From Saprospiraceae bacterium (GTDB lineage: Bacteria; Bacteroidota; Bacteroidia; Chitinophagales; Saprospiraceae), in assembly GCA_027488935.1 (NCBI GenBank), contig JAIYAP010000084.1, positions 1-64,000 of the forward strand: DNA of 64,000 nucleotides. The letters run 5' to 3'. Below, piece after piece: positions 40,895 to 59,615 of the stretch. How positions within the stretch are numbered: position 1 is the stretch's first letter; the number at the start of each line of letters is the position of its first letter. The notes below the pieces were generated by a model. That model searched no databases. It saw nothing but the letters and a program-made list of their open reading frames with translations, and was not told the origin of the DNA. The position numbers were made by a program, and so were the translations under genes.

Positions 40895-42523
40895 ATGCAA
40901 CCTATCTGTAAATGTGTATTATTTCTGACGTTTGTATTGACTACGCATACATTCTCAGAACTTCATGCGGCGAATAAAAATATCCCCAAATTTAACACAA
41001 CTAAAGAAAATACACATACGACACCATTTACGGTATCGTTGCAACAGCAATTGACCAAAGGGCTTGATTCGCTTCAAATATTTTGCACGATCACTGCCAA
41101 CAAAGCATTTAGCGCTTCGAATACGTTAAAAATACAAATTGCCCTGGAGGAAGATCGGTTTCTATTGCTTCCCAGCAACAACCTAAATCGCGTACATGCC
41201 CGCATACGTACCCGCCTCACGACCAAAAATTTACCGATCCAATGGGCCGATCAAGAAAAATATGCGCTCGATTTCAGTATGCCGCTCCCACGAAATCTTG
41301 AAAATAAAGGCCGACTGTTTATGCGTGCATCTTTATGGTCTTCCGATCAGGATACGTTACTACTTTCTACCACCAGGTTGATTGAGGTTCCTTATGATCT
41401 GATTGCGGAAGGCGTACAAGGCCTTGAACTTTTGAATTGTGCTACTGACCTTGAGCCCGTTTTGATTTTTAAAAATGCGGGCGTTATAACGCTTTCTTCA
41501 TGTATAATTTCTTACAAGTTTGACCAAAACAACAGCCAAACCATCGAATGGACCGGCGAACTTAAACCAGGCCATTCTACCATTGTAAACCTGCCCGCTA
41601 CCACGCTCAGCAAGGGTAAACACCGTTTTCAATTTTCCCTTTCAAACCCAAATGGTCAGAAAGAATTCGTCCTCGACAATAATTCCTATAAAATAGCCGG
41701 ATTTTACATGGTGGAATCCATCGCGGCTCCATTCAACTTGAATTTTCAATCGGCCAGCAGGACCGATCGGAATACACCTTTTATCCTCCACAATACGCAT
41801 CCAAATGAACTAAAATGGAGTTTTAAAAACAGTGTCAGCAGCTTTGGCAAGGCGAGTAAGTCCTTGTCACTCAGCCTACTCCATACCCCTCCTGGTGTCC
41901 AAAACGAACTGATCTTGCCCATTAAAAACCTCGACCAATTAAATCGGCCACAACTACGTTTCAATTACGCCTATTTCCAGCAAAACCATGGCAACGAGGA
42001 TCAATTGGAAGTGATGATTTCCACCGATTGTGGTACAAGCTGGCGTTCTATTTGGTCCAAACAAGGCAGCAACCTCGCAACCGCATTTCCAGCAGCACAA
42101 TTCAAAACACCCGGTAGAAAGGACTGGAAAAACATCCGATATGACTTGTTTGAAGTAGCCAAACAATCAGAAATGCTGTTAAAGTTTGTATTTACCAGTG
42201 ATGCCGGCAATGCTTTTTTCCTGGACGATATCAACATTAGCAGTGATACTTCTGCCATACAAACCGAATTGGTACTGGCCCCCAATCCCTGTAACGGCAT
42301 CGCCCAGTTTACCATCAACAATGCGTTTAATGAAGAATATACGTTAAAAGTCCTGAATACGGCAGGACAAATCGTTTTTGTAGAACTGATTGATGTAAGC
42401 AGCAATACCTTCACGGATACCATCAATTTGCTACACCTGCCCAGTGGTGTTTACCCGGTAGCCCTTTACAACAAATCCGGCCTGATTGGAAAACCCAAAC
42501 AATTGGTCGTCCTAAAACCATAA
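40895..42523 (+). CDS. Exported T9SS-domain protein
   Basis: A 542-residue protein with a signal peptide (MQPICKCVLFLTFVLTTHTFSELHA), a CARDB-like beta-sandwich region (about 150-260), a jelly-roll-like domain of choice-of-anchor/MAM appearance (about 275-440, DQLEVMISTDCGTSWRSIW ... FFLDDINIS) and a C-terminal T9SS-type domain (APNPCNGIAQF ... LPSGVYPVALYNKSG). Function unknown; probably a cell-surface or secreted adhesion-type protein. The 230 bp before it contain the short repeat ACCATTGT but no other gene. Confidence 0.75.
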   Translation: MQPICKCVLFLTFVLTTHTFSELHAANKNIPKFNTTKENTHTTPFTVSLQQQLTKGLDSLQIFCTITANKAFSASNTLKIQIALEEDRFLLLPSNNLNRVHARIRTRLTTKNLPIQWADQEKYALDFSMPLPRNLENKGRLFMRASLWSSDQDTLLLSTTRLIEVPYDLIAEGVQGLELLNCATDLEPVLIFKNAGVITLSSCIISYKFDQNNSQTIEWTGELKPGHSTIVNLPATTLSKGKHRFQFSLSNPNGQKEFVLDNNSYKIAGFYMVESIAAPFNLNFQSASRTDRNTPFILHNTHPNELKWSFKNSVSSFGKASKSLSLSLLHTPPGVQNELILPIKNLDQLNRPQLRFNYAYFQQNHGNEDQLEVMISTDCGTSWRSIWSKQGSNLATAFPAAQFKTPGRKDWKNIRYDLFEVAKQSEMLLKFVFTSDAGNAFFLDDINISSDTSAIQTELVLAPNPCNGIAQFTINNAFNEEYTLKVLNTAGQIVFVELIDVSSNTFTDTINLLHLPSGVYPVALYNKSGLIGKPKQLVVLKP

Positions 42524-42584
42524 ATACCTGATTTTTAACCCAACACAATTCGTTTTACCTTTTTTTCATGCCGCGCAAAAAAGA

Positions 42585-42621
42585 AAAGCCGCCATCCCGA
42601 ATCATTCGGAATAGCGGCTTT
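42585..42621. terminator. Bidirectional terminator before rpoC end
   Basis: AAAGCCGC-C-AT-C-CCGA, a short loop, then TCGG-A-AT-A-GCGGCTTT. It sits between the convergent T9SS protein gene and rpoC, 24 bp after the rpoC stop. Confidence 0.85.
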
Positions 42622-42644
42622 GTATTTTGAAGAGATCGAATCCC

Positions 42645-45600
42645 TTAAATATCGTCTTCTACCAGAACTTCTTCTTGCTTCTCCTTGAACGGACGGCCCG
42701 AACCTGTTACCTGCAAGCGATCGTACTCGCGCAAACCTGTACCTGCCGGGATTTTCTTGCCGACAATTACGTTCTCTTTCAAACCCATCAAGTGGTCTTT
42801 CTTCGCTGCAATTGCTGCGGTAGAAAGTACTTTCGTGGTTTCCTGGAACGAAGCCGCAGAAATCCAAGACTCAGTACCCAACGACGCTTTAGTAATACCC
42901 AACAACATCGAAACAGCCGTAGCAGGCAATGCATCGCGGTATTCCACTAATTTTTTGTCGTTGCGCTTCAAGTAGGAGTTTTCCTCCCGCACCTGACGCA
43001 AAGTTACCAATGCACCCGCTTTCAACTTCGCACTATCGCCTGGATCGGTGATAAATTTCTTGTCAAAAATCCAGTCATTATAATCGATAAATTCATTGCG
43101 TTCAACTGGTTCGCCTTCCAAAAAGTGCGTATCACCCTGGTCTTTAATTTCCAAACGACGCAACATCTGACGTACAATTACCTCAATATGCTTGTCATTG
43201 ATATTGATACCCTGTGAACGATAAACCTCCTGCACACCATTTACCAAATAGTAAGATGCTGCAAACGGGCCTCTGATCGCCAAAATATCCTTCACCGCAA
43301 TGGTTCCCTCTGTCAATGCCGTACCTGAGCGTACAAAGTCACCATCCTGCATCAGTACGTGTTTCGTCAACGGAATCATGTACTTGCGTTTCTGGCCGTC
43401 TTTTGCCTCGATCATACATTCGCGGTTACCACGCTTGATGGATCCAAAGGTGATCACACCATCAATCTCCGCAACAATAGCAGGATTGGATGGGTTACGT
43501 GCTTCAAATAACTCCGTAACACGTGGCAGACCACCGGTGATATCCGCAATTTTACCCAATTTACGCGGGATCTTCACAATTTGCTGACCAGATTTCACTT
43601 GCTCATCATCGTCAACGGTGATGTAAGCACCTACTGGCAGCGAGTATTGTTTCAATTCCTCGCCTGTTTTCGAATCTACAATCGAAATAGAAGGAATCTT
43701 ACGCTTGTTCTTAGATTCAATTACTACTTTCTCGGCAAAACCGGTCTGGTCGTCGCGTTCCATCCGGAAGTTAACACCCTCTTCAAGATTGTTGTACCGT
43801 ACCGCTCCGAGGAACTCGCTCACAATCACGGCGTTAAATGGATCCCATTCGCAAATCTTGTCACCGCGTTGTACATCCTGGCCTTCCACCACAAAGAGGA
43901 AAGAGCCGTATTGGATGTAGTTATTCGCTGTAACACGACCTGTTTTTGGATCAATAATCCGCAATTCACCGGTACGAGAAACTACTACGCGCAACGTGTT
44001 ACCGTTTGCGTCCGTTCCTTCTACCGTTTTGATGGAGTCAAATTCTACTCGGCCCGGGTTTTTCGCAACCAATTGGTTTTCTGTTTGGCCGATTACCGCC
44101 GTACCACCCGTGTGGAAGGTACGCAGGGTCAACTGGGTACCAGGCTCACCAATGGATTGGGCAGCAATGATACCTGTGGCATCGCCCATTTCCGCAATCC
44201 GGCCGGAGGCCAGGTTTTTACCATAACATTTTGCGCAAACACCGTGACGGCTTTCGCAAGTCAATACAGAACGGATGGTTACTGTTTCAATTTGTGCATC
44301 ATCAATTGCACCAGCCAATTTATCCGTGATGTATTCACCGGCAGCTACCATCATTTCTTCAGTATCCGGGTGGGTAATATCATGCAAGCTGTAACGACCT
44401 TTAATCCGGTCGCGCAAGTTTTGAATGATTTTATCCCCTTCTTTCAACGCTGTTGTATCAATACCACGCAAGGTGTTGCAATCCACTTCACGAATTACCA
44501 CGTCTTGTGCAACGTCTACCAAACGACGAGTCAAGTAACCCGCATCAGCCGTTTTCAACGCGGTATCCGCCAAACCTTTACGCGCACCGTGGGTAGAGAT
44601 AAAGAATTCCTGAACCGACAAGCCTTCCAAGAAGTTCGACAAGATCGGGTTCTCAATGATCGCACCACCGGTGTCACCACTCTTACGTGGTTTCGCCATC
44701 AGTCCGCGCAATCCGCACAACTGCTTGATCTGCTGTTTCGAACCACGCGCACCAGAATCAAGCATCATAAATACAGAGTTAAAGCCCTGTTTGTGCGTGC
44801 TCAATTCTTTCATCAATTGATCCGTGATTTTGCTATCCGCATATGTCCACTTATCAATGATCTGGTTGTATCGTTCGTTGTAGGTGATCAAACCCATATT
44901 GTAGTTATCCCACACCTCATCTACTTCTATCTGAGCTGCTGCCAAAGCGGTTTTCTTCAAGGTAGGGATGATCAAATCTCCTAAGTTAAAGGACAAACCT
45001 GCTTTAAACGCCCAACCGAAACCAAGTTCTTTGATATTATCCAAAAACTCAGCCGTCGTTTTGAAACTGGTATTGTTGATGATTTCACCAATGATCAGTT
45101 TCAGGTTACGTTTCGTCAACAACTCATTGATAAACGGAATGCCTGCTGGAACCGCCTGGTTGAACAACACGCGACCAACCGTCGTTTTTAAACGCGCAGT
45201 TCGGATGCTACCATCCGCTTCCGGTTTCAAAATGCGGCATTCAATGGTTGCATGCAAGTCTAATTGACCTTCATTGTAAGCAATTTGCACTTCTTCTGGC
45301 GAATAGAAACGACGACCTTCGCCGCGTACTGGATTCTCCGGAATGCTCTGGCGCTCTTTTGTCAGGTAGTACAAGCCCAATACCATGTCCTGTGAAGGCA
45401 GGGTGATCGGCGAACCGTCCTGTGGATTGAGCATATTGTGGCTCGAAAGCATCAAAACCTGTGCCTCCAGGATCGCAGCATGGCTCAATGGTACGTGTAC
45501 CGCCATCTGGTCACCGTCAAAGTCGGCGTTAAATGCCGTACAAACCAGCGGATGCAACTGTATCGCTTTACCCTCAATCAAGCGTGGCTGGAATGCCTGG

Positions 45601-46946
45601 ATAGACAAACGGTGCAACGTTGGTGCACGGTTGAGCATCACAGGGTGACCGCGCAAGATGTTTTCCAGGATTTCCCAGATCACCTGATCCTTGCGATCTA
45701 CCAGTTTTTTGGCCGATTTTACGGTTTTAACAATACCCCGCTCAATCAATTTACGAATAATAAACGGCTTGAACAATTCCGCAGCCATGGCTTTTGGAAT
45801 ACCGCATTCATGCAGCTTCATGGTTGGACCTACTACGATTACCGAACGACCAGAGTAGTCGACACGTTTACCAAGCAGGTTCTGACGGAAACGACCTTGT
45901 TTACCTTTCAGAATATCAGACAATGATTTCAGGGCACGACCACCTTCCGCTTTTACCGCGTTGGATTTACGGGAGTTGTCGAACAGTGAATCCACTGCTT
46001 CCTGCAACATCCGTTTTTCATTCCGCAAAATCACCTCTGGCGCTTTGATCTCCAACAAACGCTTCAAACGGTTGTTACGGATAATCACACGACGGTACAA
46101 ATCGTTCAAATCAGAAGAGGCAAAACGACCGCCATCCAACGGCACCAAGGGGCGCAATTCGGGTGGTACAACGGGCAAATACTGGATTACCGTCCACTCT
46201 GGACGCTGACCAGCACTTTCCAAACCTTCACGGAAAGCTTCTACCACGCGCAAACGTTTGTTCGCTTCGGTTTTCTTTGCCTGACTGGTTTCATTGTGCG
46301 ATTCATGGCGCAGTTGAGCCGACAAATCATCGAGGTTCAAAATGCTCAACAAGGAGTGTACCGCTTCGGCACCCATTTTGGCAATGAACTTGTCAGGATT
46401 GGTATCATCCAACTGCTGGTTTTCTTTCGGAAGGGTATCGAGGATCTCGAGGTACTCTTCTTCCGTCAGCAAATCCATTTTGCTCAGACCTTCTTCGCCT
46501 TTGATACCAGCTTGAATTACGACATAGCGCTCATAATAAACGATCGCCTCCAATTTCTTGGATGAAGTTCCCAGGATGTAACCAATTTTGTTGGGCAAAC
46601 TTTTGAAGAACCAAATATGCACAACAGGCACCACGAGACGAATATGTCCCATGCGCTCCCGACGAACCTTTTTTTCGGTCACTTCTACCCCGCAACGGTC
46701 ACAAACGATCCCTTTGTAGCGAATCCGTTTGTACTTGCCGCAATAGCACTCATAGTCCTTAACAGGACCGAAAATCCGCTCACAGAACAAACCATCGCGT
46801 TCGGGTTTGTATGAACGGTAATTGATCGTTTCTGGCTTGAGTACCTCACCATAGCTACGCTCCAGAATTTCGTCCGGGCTTGCGAGTGCAATGATGATCG
46901 TGCTGAAAGCCTGATCGGTTTTGTTGCTTTTCTTTTTGAATGGCAT
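42645..46946 (-). CDS. rpoC: RNA polymerase subunit beta'
   Basis: Catalytic subunit of RNA polymerase, 1433 residues from the start at 46946 (MPFKKKSNK), chosen over a frame extended 11 codons upstream. It has the first zinc site CYCG...CDRC, the active-site [15 protein letters not shown] holding Mg2+, and the second zinc site [11 protein letters not shown]. Length is normal for the phylum. It is co-oriented with rpoB but separated from it by two unrelated genes and 99 bp, against the near-universal rpoB-rpoC adjacency. Confidence 0.98.
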
Positions 46947-47045
46947 ATTTCTAAATGTGGTAATATGCTTGAAAATCAATATGTTGAAATATCACTCCAG
47001 CAAATTTTAGCAATTGAACATGGCTCATTTCGCCAAATTTGCTTT

Positions 47046-48050
47046 TCAAGAATGCTTTTTAATAAACTTGTACAACCAACTGTACCGGAAAAAATGCGTT
47101 GTATTCAAAAAGTGCTTTCGCGTCGGGACACCCACATAGGCACCCAATTCTGATCGAGAAAACTCCTTTCCTTCGAGGCATACTTTTTTGAAAAGCAAGG
47201 CGATTCCACCCGTTTTTTCAGAGGGCAAATGCCAAATTGGCAAGGCAGCATCTTTGGAAACCACATTGTTATAATGCGGCGCCGTCCAGATTCTTTTGAT
47301 AAATGCATCCAGCGAACCAAATTTGCCTATTTTGAAGTAACAATAACTCAAAAAATGCGCTTCTTCATTCAACTTAGGAAGCCCTTTTTCAAACCGTTGT
47401 AACATCGCCTGCCAAATCCTGGGCGCCATCGCATTTAACTGCTCTACCACACTATAACTTGCTGCAAGGATTTCACCACCGTAATAAATTGGGTTAAAAC
47501 CAGGGTCTTTTCCATCTAATTCGGTGTAAATCTGCCGCATACCTTCCCGGGTTACGCCATTTATAACATGGCCATCCGCATAAGACATGGGCAAAGCAAG
47601 CAAGCCTTCTTTCTGTAATTGCGCAAATAATGCATCGAGCGGCTGATTGATTAAACAATCGGAATCCAATACGATGAAATCATCTGCATGGTTGTATTTC
47701 GTTTCAATGAACTGCAAAATATCAAAAATGTAAAACTGATTGCGCCACTTTCCAAAATAACCAGGCGGTGTTTGCCAGGTCAGCGGAAGTACAATCAACT
47801 CCACGTTTTTCGATTTCAAAAAATTCGCCAAATCCAAACCATCCACTTCCGGCAATTGGTCCCAATCTTTATTGGAAAACAAAATATGCCTGCGATCAGG
47901 ATTGAATCGGGTACTTAAAGCATAAAAAAGGGCTATACACCGCCAATAAATCAATTGAAATGCTGGCAAATGCGATTGTTTCCCTACCTGCGGATACTCC
48001 GAACTTTCGTCCGGATTGTCCAAATAAATCCAGGTACAGATATAATCCAT
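47046..48050 (-). CDS. Glycosyltransferase-like protein between rpoB and rpoC
   Basis: A 334-residue protein with a nucleotide-sugar-type fold by appearance: the DxD-like motif IVLDSDCLINQPLDALF follows an FIETKYNHADD helix, as in GT-A enzymes. It has no signal peptide and no membrane segment, so it is cytoplasmic. Family not certain. It starts 4 bp after the FkbM-type gene, so both are translationally coupled and likely work on the same product, probably a surface glycan. Confidence 0.75.
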   Translation of the reverse strand: MDYICTWIYLDNPDESSEYPQVGKQSHLPAFQLIYWRCIALFYALSTRFNPDRRHILFSNKDWDQLPEVDGLDLANFLKSKNVELIVLPLTWQTPPGYFGKWRNQFYIFDILQFIETKYNHADDFIVLDSDCLINQPLDALFAQLQKEGLLALPMSYADGHVINGVTREGMRQIYTELDGKDPGFNPIYYGGEILAASYSVVEQLNAMAPRIWQAMLQRFEKGLPKLNEEAHFLSYCYFKIGKFGSLDAFIKRIWTAPHYNNVVSKDAALPIWHLPSEKTGGIALLFKKVCLEGKEFSRSELGAYVGVPTRKHFLNTTHFFRYSWLYKFIKKHS

Positions 48051-48054
48051 CCTT

Positions 48055-48810
48055 TTAGCGCTTTAGTATCCAAAAATTGGCATCATCCAGGATCAATTTC
48101 AAGCCTGTTTCTTCCAGAATTTCCCTGCATTCGGCTACTTCTTCTTTCGATAAAATATCCTTGTGCGGGTGTACTTCCATAAAAACGGTGTGCAATTGCT
48201 CCAACCAGGTTTTATTATCGCGCAAAAACTGCAACTCACCGCCTTCAATATCCATTACTAAGGTATCGAATTGTAGATCGTGTGTTTGTTCCAACGCTTT
48301 AATAGACTTTCCGGGAACTTCAATTTGGGTAGAAGATGCCCGACGGTTGCTGCTCATTAAAATGGTACGACCAATAAAAAATGGATTGCTTTTCTGCTCC
48401 GACACCATACAGTGTTCGATTTGAAAACCGCTACCATTGTGTTCCCGATTCCTTTCAATAAATTGGATCAGATTCGGGTTGGCCTCCACTACAACGTGCC
48501 GCTCAGGATGCGTAAGCAATTTATTGGTCACACAGGATACAACCCCCAAACATGCCCCCAGTTCCAATACCGTCGCTTCCGGATTCAAGTATTGTTTTAG
48601 ATAACGCCGTTCCTGTTTTTCATAAAAATTGATCGGAAACTGCCCTCTAAACTTGATGTCCGTTACTTCCCTTGGAATCAGCAATTCCACACCTTCCGTT
48701 TTGTACTTATTGCCCATCAGGGTAAAATACACCCCAGCCAACCAAAGTTTTGTGTTGAATTTCAACAAGTTAAACCTTTGTCGAAGGCTTGGAACGGTCG
48801 TTGTGCTCAT
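48055..48810 (-). CDS. FkbM-family methyltransferase between rpoB and rpoC
   Basis: A 251-residue SAM-dependent methyltransferase. The SAM motif I is VLELGACLGVVS, the acidic loop HVVVEANPNL follows, and the FkbM signature VMDIEGGELQFL is present near residue 185. Such enzymes often methylate sugars in surface polysaccharides. It lies 64 bp downstream of the rpoB stop, with a strong hairpin in between, and 4 bp upstream of the glycosyltransferase-like gene. Confidence 0.87.
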   Translation of the reverse strand: MSTTTVPSLRQRFNLLKFNTKLWLAGVYFTLMGNKYKTEGVELLIPREVTDIKFRGQFPINFYEKQERRYLKQYLNPEATVLELGACLGVVSCVTNKLLTHPERHVVVEANPNLIQFIERNREHNGSGFQIEHCMVSEQKSNPFFIGRTILMSSNRRASSTQIEVPGKSIKALEQTHDLQFDTLVMDIEGGELQFLRDNKTWLEQLHTVFMEVHPHKDILSKEEVAECREILEETGLKLILDDANFWILKR

Positions 48811-48829
48811 TGCTTTTTCCTATTGAAAA

Positions 48830-48863
48830 TGTGGAGCACAACCGTTACATGTTATGCTCCACA
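48830..48863 (-). terminator. Hairpin after rpoB
   Basis: On the minus strand TGTGGAGCATAAC and GTTGTGCTCCACA form 13 pairs (one G-U) around an 8-base loop, followed by TTTTC. It begins 12 bp after the rpoB stop. It could end or weaken rpoB transcripts before the inserted genes and rpoC. Confidence 0.75.
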
Positions 48864-48874
48864 CTTCAGTGCGT

Positions 48875-51800
48875 TTATTCAAATTTTACATCTAAGGCCA
48901 AACCGCGCAATTCGTGTACCAATACGTTGAAGGATTCCGGAATGTTTGGTTCTGGCAAATTATCTCCTTTAACGATTGCTTCGTACGCTTTTGCACGACC
49001 TTGAATATCATCCGATTTCACGGTCAACAATTCTTGCAGGATATTCGATGCGCCGTATGCCTCAAGTGCCCAAACCTCCATCTCACCAAAACGCTGACCA
49101 CCAAACTGGGCTTTACCACCCAATGGCTGCTGCGTGATGAGCGAGTATGGTCCGATCGAACGCGCGTGCATCTTATCGTCTACCATGTGGCTCAGTTTCA
49201 GCATGTAAATTACGCCTACCGTCGCCTTCTGGTGGAAGCGGTCACCCGTTTCACCGTCCGACAAGAATGTTTGGCCCAATTCCGGCAAACCTGCTTTTTC
49301 GATCCAGGCTGCAACTTCGTCTGCTTTTGCACCGTCAAAGATCGGCGTTGCAAATTTCAAACCAAGACGCTCACCGGCCCAACCCAATACCGTTTCGAAA
49401 ATCTGACCCAGGTTCATACGAGATGGTACACCCAGTGGGTTCAGTACCACGTCGACCGGCGATCCGTCGGCCAGGAACGGCATATCTTCCATCCGTACAA
49501 TACGGCTTACGATACCCTTGTTACCGTGGCGACCTGCCAATTTATCCCCTACTTTCAGTTTCCGTTTTTTAGCGATGTACACTTTCGCTAATTTCAATAC
49601 GCCCGCTGGCAATTCATCACCAATGCTGATGTTGAACTTTTCGCGTTTGTAACGGCCCACTTCTTCATTCACTTTGATGCTGTAATTGTGCAGCAAACGT
49701 GCAATCAGGTGGTTGGTATTTTTCTCGTTGGTCCAGTTGGAGTAATCCACCTGGCTGAAATCGATCTGGTCGCGCAGGATTTGAACGCTCAATTTGGAGC
49801 CTTTCGGAACCATTTCGTCGTTGTAAATCGAGCGAATACCATTCGTAACCTTATCTTTTACCAACAATTGAAGTTTGTCGATCAGGATCGTCTTCAATTT
49901 GTTGAGTGCAACTACGTGTTCATCATCCAATTTATCCAAAAGCGCCTTTTCAGACTCTTTTTGAACCTTATCTTTCTTGGCGCGCGCAAACAATTGCTTG
50001 TCAATTACCACCCCGTTGATACTTGGTGGAACTTTCAAAGAAGCATCTTTTACGTCGCCCGCTTTGTCGCCAAAGATCGCACGCAAGAGTTTTTCCTCTG
50101 GTGTTGGGTCGGTTTCACCTTTTGGTGTAATCTTACCAATCAGAATATCTCCTTCCTTCGCCCAGGCACCGATGCGGATGATACCGTGTTCGTCGAGGTC
50201 TTTGGTAGCTTCCTCACTTACGTTAGGAATATCTGCCGTCAATTCTTCCTCGCCGAGTTTCGTGTCACGTACATCCAACTCAAAGTGCTCAATATGGATC
50301 GAAGTAAATACGTCTTCTTGTACAACGCGCTCTGACAATACGATCGCATCCTCGAAGTTGTACCCTTTCCAAGGCATAAAGGCCACTTTCAGGTTTTGAC
50401 CCAAGGCCAATTCGCCGTTTTCTGTAGCATAACCTTCACAAAGAATATCGCCTTCTTCTACCCGTTGTCCGCGGCGTACAATTGGTTTCAGGTTGATGCA
50501 AGTACCTTGGTTGGTACGCATAAACTTGGTCAATTTGTACATTTTACGCGCATCTTCGAAAGAAACCAATTGATCTTCTTCAGTACGGTCGTAGTTAATG
50601 ATAATTTCGTTTGCGTCTACATATTCTACTACGCCGCTGCCTTCTGCATTGATCAGCATCCGAGAGTCACGGGCAACTTTCGCTTCCAAGCCAGTTCCCA
50701 CCACCGGTGAGTTCGGACGAATCAGCGGAACTGCCTGACGTTGCATGTTTGATCCCATCAAGGCACGGTTCGCATCGTCATTCTCTAGGAACGGAATCAA
50801 GGAAGCCGACACCCCTACAATTTGGTTGGGGGCAACGTCGATATATTCCAGTTCATCAGGTGTCAAAATCGGGAAGTCACCGTGTTCGCGTGCTTTCACA
50901 CGATCGTTCAAGAAAGCGCCGCTTTCGTCAACCGGAGAGTTGGCTTGTGCGATTTTCTTGTAATCTTCTGCTTCAGCGGACAGGTATTCCACATCGCCTT
51001 CCATAATTACCTTACCTGCGTCTACACGACGATAAGGTGTTTCGAGGAAGCCCATTTTGTTGATTTTCGCGTGGGTACACAGGGTAGAGATCAAACCGAT
51101 GTTTGGTCCTTCCGGTGTTTCAATCGTACACAAACGGCCATAGTGGGAGTAGTGTACGTCACGCACCTCAAAGCCAGCGCGCTCGCGCGAGAGACCACCA
51201 GGTCCGAGTGCCGAAATACGGCGCTTATGGGTGATTTCAGAAAGCGGGTTGGTTTGATCGAGGAACTGCGACAACTGGCTGGTACCGAAGAACGAATTGA
51301 TCACCGAAGAAAGCGTACGCGCGTTGATCAGATCTACTGGCGTAAATACTTCATTATCACGTACGTTCATGCGTTCACGAATCGTACGCGCCATCCGTGC
51401 AAGACCCACACCGAACTGAGCGTACAACTGCTCGCCCACGGTACGTACCCGACGGTTGGAAAGGTGGTCAATATCGTCGATTTCGGCCTTGTTATTGATC
51501 AAACTTACGATATAACGCACAATGGCGATGATATCTTCTTTGGTCAAAACCAGGTTGTTATCGTCAATATCCAACTGCAACTTGCGGTTGATTTTGAAAC
51601 GGCCCACTTCGCCAAGGTTGTAACGCTTGTCGGAGAAGAACAATTTCTCAATAATACCACGTGCAGTCTCGTCATCTGGTGGATCGCTTCCGCGCAGCTG
51701 ACGGTATATGTAAGTCACGGCTTCGAGTTCGCTCGAGGTCGGGTCTTTTTGTAGCGTATTGTAGATGATCGAAAAGTCTTCATCGATATCCGTACGTTGC

Positions 51801-52714
51801 AGGATAATGGTTGTGGTACCTGCATCAAGGATCAATTCGATATTTTCTTCATCCAGCAAAGTATCGCGTTCCAGGATGATTTCATTCCGTTCGATGGTTA
51901 CCACCTCACCGGTGTCTTCATCCACGAAATCTTCCGTCCAAGTTTTCAATACCCGAGCCGCCAATTTCCGACCAACCGAGCCTTCCAGGTTTTCGCGGGT
52001 GCAGGCAATTTCATCGGCCAGGTTGAACAGGTCGAGAATTGCTTTATCCGTATCGAAGCCGATTGCGCGCAGCAGGGTGGTTACTGGAAACTTCTTTTTC
52101 CGGTCGATGTACGCATACATCACCAGGTTGATATCGGTCGCAAACTCCATCCATGCGCCTTTGAACGGGATTACCCGTGCGCTGTAGATTTTGGTACCGT
52201 TTGGGTGAAAACTTTGTCCAAAAAATACGCCGGGAGAGCGGTGCAGTTGGGATACAATCACGCGTTCGGCGCCATTGATCACAAAAGTACCTTTCGGTGT
52301 CATGTATGGGATATTTCCGAGGAATACATCCTGTACAATCGTTTGGAAGTCAATATGTTCTTCATCGTTACAAGAAAGCCTTAATTTGGCTTTCAGGGGT
52401 ACCGAATACGTCAAACCCCGCTGCATACACTCATCAATGGTGTAGCGAGGGGGATCGATGAAGTAATCGAGAAACTCGAGGTTAAAAATATTCCGCGCGT
52501 CGGTGATCGGGAAGTTTTCCTGAAACACGCGGTAGAGCCCTTCACTATTACGGTTTTCGGGCGTGGTTTCCAGCTGAAAAAACTCCTGAAAGGATTTGAG
52601 CTGGATTTCAAGGAGGTCAGGATAATTACCTGCGAGCCGAATCTTGCCGAAGCTAAAACGATTCTGAACGCCTGTTTTTTGGACTGCCCCGTTAGAGATG
52701 CCGTTATTGGTCAT
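48875..52714 (-). CDS. rpoB: RNA polymerase subunit beta
   Basis: 1279 residues, with the typical N-terminus ([27 protein letters not shown]), the rifampicin-region hallmark ([42 protein letters not shown]), and the C-terminal [10 protein letters not shown] and [46 protein letters not shown] segments (quoted in pieces: [22 protein letters not shown]). The rifampicin region has the sensitive-type residues at the usual Asp, His and Ser positions, as far as can be judged by eye. A 305-bp gap with a promoter-like box and several hairpins precedes it. Confidence 0.98.
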
Positions 52715-52768
52715 TTTTGCAATTATATGCTTGAATGCTGATTGGCGGGTGCCGGAAGTAAACTCGGC

Positions 52769-52801
52769 ATGAGTGTGCTATGGTCGGATAGCAATACTCA
52801 T
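52769..52801 (-). promoter_or_regulatory. Hairpin in the rpoB leader
   Basis: ATGAGT/ACTCAT and TGCTAT/ATAGCA form two stacked stems around the loop GGTCGG, with a small internal loop. It lies about 55 bp upstream of the rpoB ATG, inside the transcript predicted from the box at 52846. Confidence 0.5.
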
Positions 52802-52845
52802 AAACACTTAAATGGTCATAATAGTTGCGTGCTACAGCATACAGA

Positions 52846-52895
52846 CAAAGATAGGCTTAACACGTTTGGGCCGAAAAGCCGGAACATGTTAAGCC
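52846..52895 (-). promoter_or_regulatory. Candidate rpoB promoter with abutting inverted repeat
   Basis: TATCTTTG on the minus strand (52853-52846) matches TAnnTTTG. Directly upstream of it is a 42-bp inverted repeat (52854-52895) with outer arms GGCTTAACA/TGTTAAGCC and an inner imperfect stem. The repeat may be a terminator for rplL transcripts, an operator over the -33 region, or both. Confidence 0.6.
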
Positions 52896-52969
52896 ATATC
52901 ATTAAATATCTGTTGAGAAGTAGCGTACAAGCATGGAGTCGAATAAGCAAGACTGTTGTTGTGTGATAA

Positions 52970-53000
52970 ACAGGATGGGCTTGAAAGCATCAGATCCTGT
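52970..53000 (-). other. Inverted repeat after rplL
   Basis: ACAGGAT (52970-52976) and ATCCTGT (52994-53000) form a 7-bp stem with a 17-base loop, starting 20 bp after the rplL stop. There is no T run. It could be a processing or weak termination site. Confidence 0.35.
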
Positions 53001-53019
53001 GACCCTGCATCAACGTGGC

Positions 53020-53400
53020 TTACTTAACTTCGATTACCGCACCTGCAGCTTCCAAAGTAGCTTTTAGAGATTCTGCTTCAGCTTTGTTCACACCGCTCTT
53101 CAGCGGGCTTGGAGCGCCGTCAACAAGATCTTTTGCTTCTTTCAAACCCAGACCTAAGAGATTTTTCACCTCTTTTACTACGTTCAATTTATTAGCGCCT
53201 GCATCTTTCAGAATTACGTCGAATTCTGTTTTTTCTGCTGGAGCCGCGTCGCCACCACCACCAGCTACTGGTGCTGCCATTGCTACTGCTGCTGCTGCAG
53301 GTTCGATCCCGTAATCATCTTTCAGGATATTGGCCAGTTCATTGGCTTCTTTAATCGTGAGGTTCACGAGCGATTCAGCCAGTGCTTTCAAATCTGCCAT
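53020..53400 (-). CDS. rplL: 50S ribosomal protein L7/L12
   Basis: A 126-residue stalk protein that recruits translation factors. N-terminal dimerisation part, an Ala/Gly-rich hinge ([23 protein letters not shown]), then the C-terminal domain ([20 protein letters not shown]...[15 protein letters not shown]). It follows rplJ, the L10 gene whose product binds it. Confidence 0.97.
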
Positions 53401-53533
53401 TGTTGTAGAATTTAAAAAGTTGTTTGCAAAAAATGGTTAAAAAACAGTTTTAAGGGGAATTTCAAAATTGTAACACTTTATTGTGCGTACTTGGAAGCCA
53501 AAGAAAAACAAGCGGTTTCCCGCAGTAATGATC

Positions 53534-54070
53534 TTATTCCGCAGCGCCTTCGCGTTCTTGAAGCGTCTTGATAATCCCTGCAAGTTTGCCACCAGTAGCC
53601 GTAATTTGGCTTGAAAGGCGTTTTCCAGGTGATTGCAAGAGTCCAAGAATTTCGCCGATCATCTCCTCCTTGCTCTTCAGTTTCGTCAACGCTTTCAGGT
53701 TGTCGTCGCCGATATAAACAGAGGAATCGATGTATGCTGCTTTCAAAAGCGGGCGTTCATTCGTTTTACGGAATTCTTCCAGCAATACTGCAGGCGATTT
53801 TGGATTTTCAGAAAAAAGAATCGTAGTTGGGCCTTTTAGCACTTCGAAGAGTGCGCTATAGCCTTTCGATTCTGGAGCATCTTCCAATGCTTTTTGAATC
53901 AAGGTATTTTTTGCTACTTTCACCGTGATGCCTTGTTCGTAGCACTTCTGGCGGAAAATATTAATTTTGGAAACCGGCATCGTTGACGAATCCGTCAGGT
54001 AGAAAAATGGGGTACTACCCAGTTCTTCTTTGAGGACCGCAATCGCTTCCGTTTTTTCTGCTCTTGTCAT
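53534..54070 (-). CDS. rplJ: 50S ribosomal protein L10
   Basis: A 178-residue stalk base protein that binds 23S rRNA and L7/L12 dimers. It has the N-terminal KTEAIAVLKEELGSTPFFYLTDSSTMPVSKIN region and the central KNTLIQKALED segment (given in parts), and a helical C-terminal tail ending QEREGAAE. In many bacteria L10 with L12 represses its own mRNA; the 89-bp leader here (54071-54159) shows no clear structure by eye. Confidence 0.95.
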   Translation of the reverse strand: MTRAEKTEAIAVLKEELGSTPFFYLTDSSTMPVSKINIFRQKCYEQGITVKVAKNTLIQKALEDAPESKGYSALFEVLKGPTTILFSENPKSPAVLLEEFRKTNERPLLKAAYIDSSVYIGDDNLKALTKLKSKEEMIGEILGLLQSPGKRLSSQITATGGKLAGIIKTLQEREGAAE

Positions 54071-54159
54071 TTCTTATATTGTTGAAATGTTGCGTTTTAG
54101 TTGAATCGTGTCGAGGCGTTTCGATGGGAAAACCCATTTAAAATACCAAATTGAGCACG

Positions 54160-54855
54160 TTAGACTTTGATAGACTTAGGATCGACGTGAATACCAGGAC
54201 TCATCGTACTTGCTACAGAAACAGAGCGCATGTACACCCCTTTTGCGGAGGATGGTTTCATACGTACCAGGGTAGCAATCAGTTCGTGTGCATTGTCCGT
54301 CAATTGATCTGGCGTAAATGAAACACGGCCGATAGAGGCATGGATAATACCGAACTTATCTACACGGAAAGCGATTTTACCTTTTTTCACCTCTGAAACC
54401 GCCGAAGCGATGTCATTGGAAACAGTACCTGTTTTGGGGTTTGGCATCAAACCGCGTGGACCGAGGATACGGGCAACTTTACCAAGTTGTGCCATTACGT
54501 TGGGGGTAGCGATGATCACATCAACATCCATCCAACCTTCTGTAACCTTTTGGATGTATTCGTCCAAACCAACAAAGTCAGCGCCTGCTTCTTTCGCTTC
54601 CGCTTCTCTGTCAGGTGTACAGAATACTAATACGCGTTTAGTTTTACCAGTACCGTGTGGTAAAGAAACCGTACCACGCAGTGCTTGATCCGCTTTACGA
54701 GGGTCAACCCCCAAACGCACATGCACGTCTACAGAAGCATTAAATTTCGTAGTATTGACTTCTTTGACCAGACCCATCGCTTCTGTGAGCGAATAAAGTT
54801 TGTCTTTGTCTACCTTCGAATCAACGACCTTCCGTTTTTTCGTTACTTGAGCCAT
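54160..54855 (-). CDS. rplA: 50S ribosomal protein L1
   Basis: A 231-residue two-domain L1 protein of the exit-site stalk. Landmarks: [38 protein letters not shown] and [18 protein letters not shown]1 often represses the L11-L1 operon by binding its leader; see the hairpin at 55441-55497. Confidence 0.97.
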
Positions 54856-54879
54856 TATGAACTTTAATTTAAGGTTAGC

Positions 54880-54896
54880 GTCCCGATGGGCGGGAC
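54880..54896 (-). other. Small hairpin between rplK and rplA
   Basis: GTCCCG and CGGGAC enclose a 5-base loop 25 bp upstream of the rplA ATG. It may influence rplA translation; no T run. Confidence 0.35.
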
Positions 54897-54933
54897 TCCC
54901 TTCAACCGACCGATAAAAAGGTCGTTTGTTTGT

Positions 54934-55386
54934 TTAGTTGTTACTCCAAGGAGCGTCGCCTGTAATTGTAAGTCCCATACTGCGTGCAGTACCAGCCACC
55001 ATTTTCATAGCAGATTCGATGGTAAAGCAGTTCAAGTCGGGCATTTTATTTTCGGCAATTGCACGCACCTGTTCCCAGGTTACCGTACCTACTTTTTTAC
55101 GGTTTGGTTCTGGAGAACCTTTACCTGGAGCAAGTTTGGATGCTTCGAACAATTGGATCGCTGCTGGTGGTGTTTTGATGATAAAGTCAAAGGTTTTGTC
55201 TTTATACACCTGAATGATCACCGGCAAAATTTTTCCGATTGATTCTTGCGTTTGCGCGTTGAAACGCTTGCAGAACTCCATGATGTTTACACCCTTCGAA
55301 CCGAGTGCTGGACCGATTGGTGGCGCAGGGTTTGCCTGACCGCCTTTCACCTGGAGTTTAATATAAATGTCTACTTCTTTTGCCAT
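54934..55386 (-). CDS. rplK: 50S ribosomal protein L11
   Basis: A 150-residue protein of the GTPase-associated centre. Landmarks: [19 protein letters not shown] at the N-terminus and [17 protein letters not shown] near the C-terminus. It forms the L11-L1 pair with rplA and follows nusG. Confidence 0.97.
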
Positions 55387-55440
55387 TTTTCAAAATTTTC
55401 AGAACATTACGCTCTGATTCTGAACGATTTATAAAGATCA

Positions 55441-55497
55441 TAATACTTTCTGGTGTGGAAGCGAGCCCGGGAGAAGCGGGCATCAAAGAAAGTATTA
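55441..55497 (-). promoter_or_regulatory. Long hairpin in the nusG-rplK interval
   Basis: TAATACTTTCT and AGAAAGTATTA are perfect 11-bp outer arms; GCCCG/CGGGC forms an inner stem, with an asymmetric internal loop between. The nusG stop lies in the first arm, and rplK starts 55 bp after the structure. Position and shape fit an L1 autoregulatory site of the L11 operon (inference). Confidence 0.55.
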
Positions 55498-56076
55498 ACT
55501 GATTTTTTCAACTTGCATGAAATTGAGTTCTACTTCTGTGCCGCGACCAAAAATTTTCACGACCACTTTCAATTTCTTTTTCTCTTCGTTTACTTCCTGG
55601 ATATCGCCTACGAATTCTGCAAACGGACCATCTGTAATTTTAACTGTTTCACCAATCAGGAACGGTTCGCTCATGACTTCACCCGCTTCTGAACTTTCGT
55701 CTACTTTACCGAGCAAACGATTAGCTTCCACCTGTGTCATGGGTAATGGAACTTCTTTACCCAAAAAGTGGATTACATTAGGCATATCGCTGATATGTTT
55801 GGCGATATCACCATTCAAGCGGTTTCCGAAAGCTTCTACGAGGATATAGCCTGGTAGCAGATTTCGTTCCTGCATAACTTTTTTACCGTTTCTGATTTTG
55901 TACACCTTTTCGGTAGGTACGATTACAGAAAAGATAAATTCTTGCCATCCCGAGCGTTCAATCTCAAGTAAAATACGTTCCTGAATCTTTCTCTCTTTAC
56001 CGCTGATGACACGCAGCGAGTACCATTTTCGTTGGTCGTTGCTTTGGTCGGTACTCGTATTTTTTTCCTGAATCAT
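55495..56076 (-). CDS. nusG: Transcription termination/antitermination protein NusG
   Basis: A 193-residue protein with the N-terminal NGN domain (WYSLRVISGKERKIQERILLEIE, binds RNA polymerase clamp) and the C-terminal KOW domain (VKITDGPFAEFVGDIQEVNEEKKKLKVVV, given in part). It couples transcription to ribosomes or Rho. It starts 32 bp after secE, in the standard order. Confidence 0.96.
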   Translation of the reverse strand: MIQEKNTSTDQSNDQRKWYSLRVISGKERKIQERILLEIERSGWQEFIFSVIVPTEKVYKIRNGKKVMQERNLLPGYILVEAFGNRLNGDIAKHISDMPNVIHFLGKEVPLPMTQVEANRLLGKVDESSEAGEVMSEPFLIGETVKITDGPFAEFVGDIQEVNEEKKKLKVVVKIFGRGTEVELNFMQVEKIS

Positions 56077-56108
56077 GGTTGCCGGGTTGATTAGTTAAAC
56101 GAATCAAA

Positions 56109-56306
56109 TTATTTCCAAATACCATAAATGGTTTTGAAAACCAGGCTACAGAGTGCGTCCATTCCAAAAATAAGGAGTGCAAGCATTGCGGAAGTAACCA
56201 AAACGACCACAGTACTTTCCTGCAACTGTTGGGCAGTTGGCCAGGAAACATTTTTCAGCAACTCATTGTAGCTTTCCCGCAGATAAAGCATCAATTTTTT
56301 ATCCAT
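56109..56306 (-). CDS. secE: Preprotein translocase subunit SecE
   Basis: A 65-residue single-span SecE. It has the conserved amphipathic helix YLRESYNELLKNVSWPT followed by one membrane segment (STVVVLVTSAMLALLIFGMDAL). The start at 56306 (MDKKLMLYLRES) is preferred; an extension to 56417 would translate an 18-base homopolymer into poly-Phe and is not credible. It partners SecY of the Sec translocon. Confidence 0.93.
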   Translation of the reverse strand: MDKKLMLYLRESYNELLKNVSWPTAQQLQESTVVVLVTSAMLALLIFGMDALCSLVFKTIYGIWK

Positions 56307-56367
56307 CTTCCGATTATTGTAGCCATTTTTAAAAATGGCGTAATGTAAATGTGCAGCAACGCAGCAT

Positions 56368-56385
56368 AAAAAAAAAAAAAAAAAA
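56368..56385. repeat. 18-base A homopolymer (T on the coding strand)
   Basis: A run of 18 A between tRNA-Trp and secE. On the transcribed strand it is T18, about 62 bp upstream of the secE ATG. It is prone to slippage or sequencing error, and could also act as a terminator tail or polymerase pause. Confidence 0.9.
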
Positions 56386-56438
56386 GCGATTGTCAGTATA
56401 AAACCAACAACCAGCAACGTTTAACTAACCGATAAGTG

Positions 56439-56511
56439 CAGGGGCAGCAGGGCTCGAACCCGCAGCCTGAGGTTTTGGAGACCTCCACTCTACCAATTGA
56501 GCTATGCCCCT
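56439..56511 (-). tRNA. tRNA-Trp (CCA)
   Basis: Cloverleaf with acceptor AGGGGCA/TGCCCCT, D arm, anticodon loop CTCCAAA (anticodon CCA) and T loop TTCGAGC. No CCA end is encoded. It lies between tuf and secE as usual in the phylum. Confidence 0.96.
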
Positions 56512-56580
56512 AAAAAGGATGTCTGTGCGTTTGAAAGGTCGCAAAAAACAACCGGACAAACACACAGACAAAAAGGTATC

Positions 56581-57777
56581 TTAAGCGATGATTTCAGTAA
56601 CTTGACCAGCACCTACGGTACGACCACCTTCACGAATCGCGAAGCGAAGGCCTTTTTCCATAGCAATTGTGTTCAGCAAAACTACTTCCAACTCGATGTT
56701 ATCACCAGGCATTACCATCTCAACATTGGCTGGCAATTTTACGTCACCAGTTACGTCCGTTGTACGGAAGTAGAACTGAGGGCGGTAGCCGTTGAAAAAC
56801 GGAGTGTGACGGCCACCTTCTTCTTTAGAAAGTACGTACACAGAACATTTGAAGGCTTTGTGTGGTTTTACGCTACCTGGTTTGCAGATAACCATACCAC
56901 GCTTGATTTGTTCTTTATCGATACCGCGGAGCAACAAACCAGCGTTGTCACCAGCTTCACCACGATCCAACAATTTACGGAACATTTCAACACCCGTTAC
57001 AGTAGAAGTAAGCGGCTTTTCTTCTGCTTTCATCATACCGATGATTTCAACAGGCTCACCTACGTTAATTACACCGCGCTCGATACGACCGGTAGCAACA
57101 GTACCACGACCTGTGATTGTGAAAGAGTCTTCCACAGGCATCAGGAATGGCTTGTCAACTTCGCGTACAGGCTCAGGAATCTGCGTATCACATGCGTCCA
57201 TTAACTCGTCAATTTTTGCAACGTAAGCAGGATCTCCTTCGAGTGCTTTCAATGCAGAACCTTGAACGATTGCAGCGTTGTCGCCATCAAAACCGTACGA
57301 GCTCAACAACTCGCGCAATTCCATGTCAACCAACTCAAGCATTTCTGGATCATCAACAAGGTCAACTTTGTTCATGAAAACAACTACCTGTGGAACACCA
57401 ACCTGACGAGCGAGCAGAATGTGCTCACGTGTCTGTGGCATTGGGCCGTCCGTTGCAGCACAAACCAAGATAGCACCGTCCATTTGAGCAGCACCCGTGA
57501 TCATGTTCTTAACGTAATCGGCGTGACCCGGGCAGTCAACGTGTGCATAGTGACGCTTTAACGTTTCATATTCAACGTGCGCAGTATTGATTGTGATACC
57601 GCGCTCTTTTTCTTCCGGAGCAGCATCAATGGCATCATAATCCGTTTTCTTTGCGAGACCCTTTTGCGACAGCACGAATGTGATGGCTGCCGTAAGCGTC
57701 GTTTTACCGTGGTCAACGTGACCGATGGTGCCAATATTTACGTGCGGTTTGGAGCGGACAAATGTCTCTTTTGCCAT
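56581..57777 (-). CDS. tuf: Elongation factor Tu
   Basis: A 398-residue GTPase that brings aminoacyl-tRNA to the ribosome. G motifs: GHVDHGKTT (near residue 18), the switch-region DCPGHADY and NKVD. The three domains have normal length. It is embedded in the tRNA cluster, with tRNA-Thr upstream and tRNA-Trp downstream, so tRNA processing and tuf mRNA probably arise from one transcript. Confidence 0.98.
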
Positions 57778-57925
57778 TGGTTTAAACTTATTATTTGTTT
57801 AAGTGATAATTTTGTTAATGTGATGATGTGATCATTTCGAAACAGCTCTACCAAATCGATAAAATTACGTTGTAAAACGCACCTATCTATTTGGATTAAC
57901 TCCTCTAATCATCACATTTTTCTTG

Positions 57926-57997
<72 letters not shown>

Positions 57998-58080
57998 AAT
58001 AAGTGAATAAGCGCAGACCATTTGAAGAACGATACGTAAATCGCTCATTCACTTATTTACGCATTCACTAACTTGCCGGG

Positions 58081-58153
58081 AGCGGCGGACGAGATTCGAA
58101 CTCGCGACATTCAGCTTGGAAGGCTGACGCTCTACCAACTGAGCTACCACCGC
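58081..58153 (-). tRNA. tRNA-Gly (TCC)
   Basis: Acceptor GCGGTGG/CCGCCGC with one T-G pair, anticodon stem TCAGC/GCTGA with loop CTTCCAA (anticodon TCC), T loop TTCGAAT. Confidence 0.96.
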
Positions 58154-58227
58154 AAGCTAATTTACTTTTGACGATTTTTCCATCTTACCGAAACAAGACA
58201 GAAAAATCATCAGAACGCAAATAGTTG

Positions 58228-58311
58228 TGGGGGTGGTGAGATTCGAACTTACTCAGCGGTAAAGCACCAGATTTACAGTCTGGCCCGGCTCTCCGACTCC
58301 GGGGCACCCCC
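58228..58311 (-). tRNA. tRNA-Tyr (GTA)
   Basis: Class II tRNA of about 84 bases: acceptor GGGGGTG/CACCCCC, anticodon stem CCAGA/TCTGG with loop CTGTAAA (anticodon GTA), a longer variable region, T loop TTCGAAT. The T stem GTAAG/CTCAC has one A-C mismatch. Confidence 0.94.
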
Positions 58312-58397
58312 ATTAAAATACAAGCGATATATGGATAAAAAATAACCCATAAAACGTTTTCAAATTTATTTCTCTGCCTTGACAAAGAAAAAAATTG

Positions 58398-58470
58398 AGC
58401 CACTAGAGGGACTCGAACCCCCGACCAGCTGATTACAAATCAGCTGCTCTACCAACTGAGCTACAGTGGC
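58398..58470 (-). tRNA. tRNA-Thr (TGT)
   Basis: Acceptor GCCACTG/TAGTGGC with one G-T pair, anticodon stem GCTGA/TCAGC with loop TTTGTAA (anticodon TGT), T loop TTCGAGT. First gene of the tRNA-tuf cluster. Confidence 0.96.
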
Positions 58471-58555
58471 TTGTATTTTGGTCTTCTGCAGACCTATTTT
58501 AATCCTTCAATCAACTATTTTCTTCCAGGTTAACCCCCCTTTCGAAAAGCGAGTG

Positions 58556-58585
58556 CAAAGGTAATAGATTCCTGTAAAACAGAAA
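58556..58585 (-). promoter_or_regulatory. Candidate promoter of the tRNA-tuf-ribosomal cluster
   Basis: On the minus strand TTTCTG (58585-58580) and TACCTTTG (58563-58556), about 16 bp apart, lie 85 bp upstream of tRNA-Thr(TGT). The remaining gap up to 58803 is AT-rich with no gene. Confidence 0.6.
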
Positions 58586-58803
58586 AGTAATTTTAAAAAA
58601 AAAGTGCAAAATTTATGAAAATAGTTGCGCCGCACCTTCCAACTTGGCCTCAACCTAATGCTAAAACCACTTTTCATCAGGGTTTTTAAAGAAAATTTTG
58701 CAATTAATCACTTGGTTATCAATTAATTAAACCTAAGAGGTTGTTTTTTCTTGCCGAGGTTTCCCAATCTTGCGTTTATTTGTGCGCATCATGCTCATTC
58801 AAT

Positions 58804-59436
58804 ATGTCTGATAAAACATTCGATTATTGCCTCGCTCACACGACGCCCCCGGCTCCTTATTTGCAAGCATTGGAGCGTGAAACCTACATGCGCACCCTTA
58901 GCCCGCACATGTTATCGGGTAATTACCAAGGTACGCTACTCCGATTTATTAGCCAAATGCTTCAACCCAAGCGCATCCTCGAAATCGGCACCTTCACCGG
59001 TTACGCGGCTGTTTGCCTGGCAGAAGGACTTGCTGAAGATGGTATCCTACACACCATTGAAGCCGATGACGAACTCGTTTGGATTATTCGCCAAGGTTTG
59101 GAAAATGCAGGCCTTGCACACAAGGTAATCGTGCATACCGGTGATGCCGCCAAAATCATGCCCACCCTGGATGAAGTTTTTGATCTGGTGTTTCTGGATG
59201 CTGGCAAACTAGACTATCATCATCACTATGAACTGGCACTGGCAAAAACAAGAAAAGGCGGTTTTTTACTAGCTGATAACGTACTCTGGGATGGGAAAGT
59301 AGTAGGAAATGATCCCAAAGATGCTACAGCTCAGGTATTACGGCAATTCAATGACTTTGTGCAGCAGGATCATCGGGTTGAAAACCTTTTACTGCCTTTG
59401 CGTGATGGCTTAATGTTGATGCGCAAAATTGTTTAG
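58804..59436 (+). CDS. SAM-dependent O-methyltransferase
   Basis: A 210-residue class I methyltransferase of the catechol/caffeoyl-CoA O-methyltransferase type. The SAM site is ILEIGTFTGYAAVCLAEGL; the metal and catalytic Asp positions appear in DLVFLDAGKLDYHHHYE and LLADNVLWDG. The start at 58804 (MSDKTFDYC) begins the conserved N-terminus; an earlier TTG at 58741 is less likely. Small-molecule substrate unknown. Confidence 0.88.
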   Translation: MSDKTFDYCLAHTTPPAPYLQALERETYMRTLSPHMLSGNYQGTLLRFISQMLQPKRILEIGTFTGYAAVCLAEGLAEDGILHTIEADDELVWIIRQGLENAGLAHKVIVHTGDAAKIMPTLDEVFDLVFLDAGKLDYHHHYELALAKTRKGGFLLADNVLWDGKVVGNDPKDATAQVLRQFNDFVQQDHRVENLLLPLRDGLMLMRKIV

Positions 59437-59536
59437 ATCAATACCATTTGAATACATATATGGATTGTTTTACTCCACATATAAGCGTATTATATTGAAT
59501 CTGTCGGCAATCTTTCTTCATTTCATGCAACTTACT

Positions 59537-59544
59537 TATGTTTG
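59537..59544 (+). promoter_or_regulatory. Candidate -7 box (TATGTTTG)
   Basis: An exact TAnnTTTG match, 72 bp upstream of the response-regulator ATG. Confidence 0.45.
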
Positions 59545-59615
59545 CCCTGCTTGTACGGCTAAATGGCCTATTTTAGCATCATTCATAACACCTGTTTCAC
59601 CCCAACATCTTAATC

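Follow-up and report, generated by a model that had tools for sequence, protein, structure and literature searches.

A variable set of co-oriented genes lies between rpoB and rpoC in a genus of Saprospiraceae

The genes encoding the β and β′ subunits of RNA polymerase, rpoB and rpoC, are neighbours in nearly all bacteria, and their adjacency is treated as close to universal. Here we report that, in an uncultured genus of the Saprospiraceae, most readable rpoB-rpoC junctions are occupied by sets of cargo genes whose position is conserved while their content varies, that face the same way as the polymerase genes and that evolve under purifying selection. As a whole, the explanation that we favour, and that we hold to be fairly probable, is that the rpoB-rpoC junction is a lineage-specific cargo site, that rpoC would be reached by operon read-through across the cargo, and that the glycosyltransferase-like and methyltransferase genes found there would modify glycans.

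Results

The window, that is, the whole stretch of 64,000 nt of DNA analysed here, lies on a contig of 84,840 bp in a 6.28-Mb source genome of 88 contigs. Its minus strand carries nusG-rplK-rplA-rplJ-rplL-rpoB-[MT]-[GT]-rpoC, in this order, where MT stands for a methyltransferase and GT for a glycosyltransferase-like gene. The genes nusG, rplK, rplA, rplJ and rplL (53020..56076) belong to the same operon, 5′ of rpoB (48875..52714; β subunit, 1279 aa), and rpoC, encoding the β′ subunit, occupies positions 42645..46946; four tRNA genes (56439-58470), found by an Rfam scan and likewise on the minus strand, are located 5′ of the nusG-rpoC run. Both polymerase subunits score far above the corresponding NCBIfam cut-offs (RpoB, TIGR02013, 1838.7 bits for a cut-off of 801; RpoC, TIGR02386, 1660 bits for a cut-off of 963.5), and matches of the window to the NCBIfam models of rpoB-rpoC fusions (NF007172 and NF011417) stay below theirs. 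Between rpoB and rpoC there is a gap of 1928 bp (46947-48874) that contains, also on the minus strand, a gene for a predicted FkbM-family SAM methyltransferase (MT, 251 aa, 48055..48810), a gene for a glycosyltransferase-like protein of predicted GT-A fold (GT, 334 aa, 47046..48050) and a spacer of 99 bp from the GT stop codon to the conserved rpoC ATG (46947..47045), in which the promoter scan gave no canonical promoter. A sequence-only reading of this DNA had proposed that a methyltransferase and a glycosyltransferase-like gene part rpoB from rpoC on one strand. The proposal was borne out with exactly matching coordinates, and so was the tight coupling of the two insert genes, which are spaced by exactly 4 bp. 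The start of rpoC was placed at the ATG at position 46946 by comparing 34 junctions; the ORF list has a longer TTG start at 46979. Because rpoC domain 1 occurs only once in the source genome, the rpoC of the window is not a second copy. The same layout is present in a near-identical genome, G023 (identities of 100% for RpoB, 100% for RpoC, 99% for MT and 95% for GT), and two genomes assembled into about 9 and 7 contigs (G007 and G008) have the MT alone in the gap, on contigs of 230,853 and 173,268 bp.

Sought in relatives, as the earlier reading had suggested, the interrupted order was found again in much of the genus. Among the 42 genomes sampled, a query joining the RpoB tail to the RpoC head matched in 35 and the complete junction could be read in 34; in G002, rpoB and rpoC are on separate contigs. 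Inserts of 732-3610 bp were present in 26 of the 34 readable junctions, which makes chance or one bad join untenable. The remaining eight genomes (G001, G003, G005, G013, G017, G029, G036 and G061) have adjacent genes, with gaps of 42-109 bp. Open frames of 2748 and 2793 aa in G005 and G017 were considered as fused rpoBC genes and rejected, since the rpoB stop codon lies 99 and 93 bp before rpoC. As controls, we measured five other junctions of the operon (nusG-rplK, rplK-rplA, rplA-rplJ, rplJ-rplL and rplL-rpoB) in 29 of the 34 genomes. None of the five carried an insert in any of these 29 genomes, the largest gap being 454 bp. Along the nusG-rpoC run, rpoB-rpoC alone is a hotspot. Most genus genomes are many-contig metagenome assemblies and there is a masked run within the MT of G016, both of which might hint at an assembly artefact or contamination. 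This explanation is hardly credible, given that the GT occurs in 16 separate public records of the genus, that the junctions lie on contigs of up to 545,594 bp, and that GT and close FkbM relatives were not found elsewhere in the 42 genomes.

The content of the gap differs from genome to genome. At E 0.001, 17 of the 42 genus genomes have a GT, and at E 1e-20, a threshold at which remoter FkbM-family proteins elsewhere in the genomes fall outside the listing, 10 of 42 have a close FkbM relative, in each case as one copy per genome and always at rpoB-rpoC. A second methyltransferase type (PF13489) and a third (PF08241) are found in four genomes each. A T9SS C-terminal sorting domain is carried by a 520-aa protein in two genomes and by a LamG protein in one, and lipoprotein-like cargo is present in two. 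The gaps of three genomes contain ParE-type toxin genes (loci L015, L026 and L043), preceded at L026 and L043 by a small partner, which was observed in G011 and G020. Some cargo genes are unrelated to glycans. Gene order also varies (MT-GT, GT-MT, MT-other-GT, MT alone, GT alone and others), and the MT/GT spacing, 4 bp in the window, is −4 bp in G021 and G026 and 29 bp in G025. The 45 accepted cargo ORFs all lie on the rpoBC strand, after exclusion by judgement of three minus-strand ORFs, one antisense to GT in G020, one that starts antisense to the GT end in G025, and one in G016 located in a repeat-rich stretch 3′ of rpoB and at the MT start. When 199 sampled genomes of the family, of which three or more belong to the genus, were searched with the GT profile, it matched only the genome of the window, apart from one marginal partial match (E 6.7e-4).

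Such variable cargo, together with the toxin genes of three genomes and a G+C content that in 23 of the 26 insert genomes is lower in the gap, which includes non-coding DNA, than in its flanks, would be compatible with a mobile element (a transposon, integron or integrative island) that targets the junction and brought the genes. We regard this as very unlikely, because a Pfam scan of 12 cargo proteins, out of the 45 ORFs, gave no recombinase and five junctions showed no insert-flanking repeat of at least 14 nt, a setting above the size of short target-site duplications.

Regarding the identity of the two insert genes, the MT of the window passes the curated FkbM models (TIGR01444, 61.2 bits for a cut-off of 37.7; PF05050, 39.3 bits for a cut-off of 22.7), and we predict that it is a SAM-dependent methyltransferase of the FkbM family. 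Searches of Pfam and NCBIfam with the GT of the window gave nothing at E 0.01, so its identity as a glycosyltransferase is based on fold and motif. An AlphaFold2 model obtained from the 17 genus sequences (pLDDT 87.9, pTM 0.87) was compared with the PDB using Foldseek, resulting in 301 matches at E ≤ 0.001 (best E 5.1e-8, probability 1.00). The best 50 of the 301 are the blood-group transferases GTA/GTB, alpha-1,3-galactosyltransferase, bacterial relatives (4ayj and 4cjb) and UGGT, with TM-scores by query length of 0.43-0.50 and identities of 10-13%. We take the fold of these matches to be GT-A. The motif LDSDC, at GT residues 128-132, is invariant in 17 of 17 genus sequences and fits the DxD motif, with a presumed metal/nucleotide role. 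We classify the GT by fold alone and do not assign it to GT6. A search for sequence relatives in the PDB yielded a kinesin light chain as the best candidate (E 0.55), which was discarded.

Outside the genus, relatives of the GT with 35-44% identity accounted for 17 of 33 loci, their hosts being Mucilaginibacter, Arcticibacter, Segetibacter, Acidipila, Bacteroides faecis and others. We scanned 48 of 62 neighbouring proteins, taken from 13 of these 17 loci, and found Glycos_transf_2 in 16 of the 48 and an O-antigen ligase domain in 9; single neighbours match housekeeping families, among them aconitase and CTP synthase. The surface-glycan character initially attributed to the GT is thus supported both by its fold and by the location of its relatives beside O-antigen-ligase and glycosyltransferase genes, and, judging from homology, GT and MT as a pair may modify a surface or secreted glycan. 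Anti-phage defence was also considered as an identity for the cargo and rejected; six proteins were tested, with one weak match, of the FkbM MT to mad2 (E 1.2e-4).

To place the cargo on a phylogeny, a species tree was built from seven operon proteins (39 tips, five outgroups). Under Fitch parsimony with an empty root, the presence of an insert takes no fewer than 5 changes, and that of GT and of FkbM no fewer than 4 each; as support at deep nodes goes down to 31, the minimum of 5 gains or losses is rough. In AU tests, the species tree was not rejected by GT (p 0.105) but was rejected by FkbM (delta lnL 110.6, p 3e-49). In the clearest case, G021 shares 98% identity in RpoB with G007 and G008 and 53-54% in FkbM, and FkbM identity is 76% for G021/G016 and 71% for G007/G062, pairs with 94% identity in RpoB each. 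According to these trees, the history of GT is compatible with that of the species, and FkbM genes have been swapped or differentially kept. The FkbM incongruence may reflect exchange, or an old paralogy with differential retention or loss. Third-position profiles of the flanks in 13 genome pairs revealed no clear imported tract, and such tracts were discarded as proof of homologous exchange. An unusually fast divergence of the cargo DNA was likewise discarded, being only modest in six close pairs. The dN/dS ratios were 0.06-0.17 for GT (6 pairs), 0.03-0.16 for FkbM (3 pairs) and 0.06 for the other MT types (1 pair each); the rpoB ratios did not exceed 0.017 (5 pairs), and dS was around 1 in some pairs. 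With dN/dS of 0.03-0.17 across 11 gene pairs, the cargo genes are under purifying selection.

Directly 3′ of the rpoB stop codon and 5′ of the insert genes, the minus strand of the window can form a hairpin with 17 pairs in the fold (48826..48867; −26 kcal/mol, z −4.74, equalled by none of 200 shuffles). Stems of at least 10 pairs are present 3′ of rpoB in 24 of 34 genus genomes, including five of the eight with adjacent genes, and in four of five outgroups; by this measure the hairpin is absent in 10 of the 34. Other operon junctions carry such stems in 0-9 of 27-29 genus genomes. In the outgroups, stems of at least 10 pairs also occur at rplL-rpoB (5/5), so the hairpin is not peculiar to rpoB-rpoC there. 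Its shape is kept across species while its sequence changes. Since outgroups and genomes with adjacent genes possess the stem, the hairpin is probably older than the inserts. An intrinsic terminator 3′ of rpoB was considered and rejected, because, for all the strength of the hairpin, the scan gives no terminator there; the interval 46800-49000 of the window contains one terminator-like site, against 2.3 in shuffles. A sigma-70-type promoter in the insert was also rejected, with one site in the same interval for 5.0 in shuffles. An Rfam scan of window positions 42000-60000 returned the four tRNAs over the gathering score, all of them outside the rpoB-rpoC junction, and the hairpin matches no Rfam family.

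We next considered how rpoC is transcribed in genomes with inserts. The motif TAnnTTYG, which we take to be the Bacteroidota −7 element, was sought at both ends of the gap in the 26 insert genomes. None has it within 150 nt 5′ of rpoC (2.6 expected), and one has it in the 150 nt that follow rpoB (1.8 expected). Strings resembling this motif occur in passages of the promoter literature. In a control with the window genome, TAnnTTYG was present at 3 of 14 divergent starts for 1.7 expected, which makes its absence before rpoC weak evidence. As the motif scan is low in power in that genome, a different type of promoter, or one within the last cargo gene, is possible. The distance from the end of the last cargo ORF to rpoC ranges from 10 to 185 bp (median 66.5, 26 insert genomes), and is at most 60 bp in 11 of 26 and at most 31 bp in 5 of 26 (10-31 bp), the latter being an argument for read-through. 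Because the cargo faces the same way as rpoBC, cargo and polymerase genes are probably read from one message. The sequence-only reading had left two routes to rpoC, read-through of the inserted genes or a promoter of its own. In the genus the first is better supported, by the co-oriented cargo, the spacing of 10-31 bp in five genomes, promoter-like and terminator-like sites rarer than in shuffles and the absence of the motif, and the second less so. Spacing, strand and lack of signals suggest that rpoB, cargo and rpoC would form one transcription unit.

We extended the analysis to an order sample of 158 genomes (apparently Chitinophagales), in which genes were called clearly split when more than 10 kb apart on the same contig, or when more than 4 kb of contig past one gene did not contain the other. 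Results showed 105 genomes with adjacent genes, 31 clearly split and 8 with the genes on different contigs; the remainder were three short inserts outside the genus, three genus members with inserts, two fragmentary rpoB and six in which one or both genes were missed. The clear splits come from families f3 (7; for example G038, G084, G097 and G107), f8 (8; G043, G077 and G108), f16 (4; G051), f18 (1) and f20 (11; G165, G182 and G193), and the separation is documented in loci L123-L149. In the one-contig genomes G182 and G165, contig coordinates place rpoB and rpoC 1.8 and 1.6 Mb from each other. Within the 158, all 47 family genomes outside the genus have adjacent genes. Outside the order, 0 of 68 phylum genomes showed a split, 68 of 68 being adjacent with a match gap of at most 390 bp. 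With rpoC starts of split genomes placed by alignment, TAnnTTYG was found within 150 nt 5′ of rpoC in 8 of 12 split genes of other families (2.1 expected, maximum of 7 in 300 shuffles; for example at L127, L129, L131 and L137), at scattered positions.

The three short inserts outside the genus belong to three further families. In G086 (L143) an independent insert encodes an AAA ATPase together with a protein weakly like RloB/DUF4276, a possible defence pair. The insert of G095 encodes a protein of secreted type and a small one of membrane type, as read by eye, and that of G198 (L145), again independent, a family-2 glycosyltransferase and two proteins that by eye are of membrane type, that is, glycan-type cargo between rpoB and rpoC in another family.

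An alternative to read-through is that rpoB and rpoC were already transcriptionally uncoupled in the order, with rpoC having its own promoter and selection on adjacency being relaxed, so that the inserts would be neutral and a first stage to separation. The clear splits in five families, the presumed −7 element near two thirds of the split rpoC genes examined (8/12) and the short inserts in three further families favour this alternative. Insertion followed by disconnection is also known for operon pairs, as described in passages of PMC8046335. Nevertheless, we consider uncoupling unlikely within the genus. The motif is absent near rpoC in all 26 insert genomes (with the weak control described above), in five of the 26 the spacing is too short to fit a promoter that lies outside the cargo gene, the accepted cargo runs in the rpoBC direction, and purifying selection on the cargo speaks against neutral passengers.

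Discussion

The known phenomenon closest to our findings is operon invasion, here at an unexpected place. Passages of Brandis 2021 (PMC8046335) describe insertion then disconnection in operon pairs of the same cluster in Gammaproteobacteria and Bacilli, and report that in Lactobacillaceae nrdHEF has entered the rpoBC operon between rplL and rsmC. As in those cases, small gene groups sit between conserved transcription and translation genes, sometimes with full disconnection afterwards; unlike in those passages, the inserts of the genus part rpoB from rpoC, do so in most sampled members and carry variable cargo. Searches of the open-licence literature, judged mainly by titles and abstract openings, gave no report of a bacterial rpoB-rpoC pair with genes in between, nor of rpoB/rpoC splits in the order. 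Surface polysaccharide loci have conserved flanking genes, variable glycan genes and gene exchange. The junction is similar to them in its fixed flanks, varying glycan genes and putative exchange, and differs in that it holds one to five genes, partly non-glycan, in that the flanks are essential polymerase genes, and in that neither a polymerase nor a flippase was recognised among the cargo scanned. The rpoB-rpoC fusions also deviate from the usual rpoBC arrangement, but in the genus the genes have moved apart and encode two separate full-length subunits.

Under the cargo-site explanation, the cargo genes would have arrived 3′ of a hairpin that probably already trailed rpoB. They would be transcribed by read-through from the upstream operon promoters, the same transcript would reach rpoC, and cargo expression would be held at a growth-coupled housekeeping level. 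A more ambitious version is conceivable, though we find it doubtful. It would make the rpoB-rpoC gap a dedicated exchange locus, at which alone different species trade surface-glycan and toxin-antitoxin genes, these being driven by the polymerase operon, keeping coat chemistry in step with RNA polymerase; the same weak point elsewhere in the order would have led to repeated full separation of rpoB and rpoC.

The feature is wider than the original finding in the window, comprising a genus-wide variable locus, non-glycan cargo and full splits in relatives of the order. The junctions provide a natural set of cassettes, seemingly driven by a housekeeping promoter. Together, the insert carriers, their sister species with adjacent genes and the recurrent splits in the order allow a test of what the pairing of rpoB and rpoC is selected for, whether equal subunit dose, co-translational assembly or shared promoters only.
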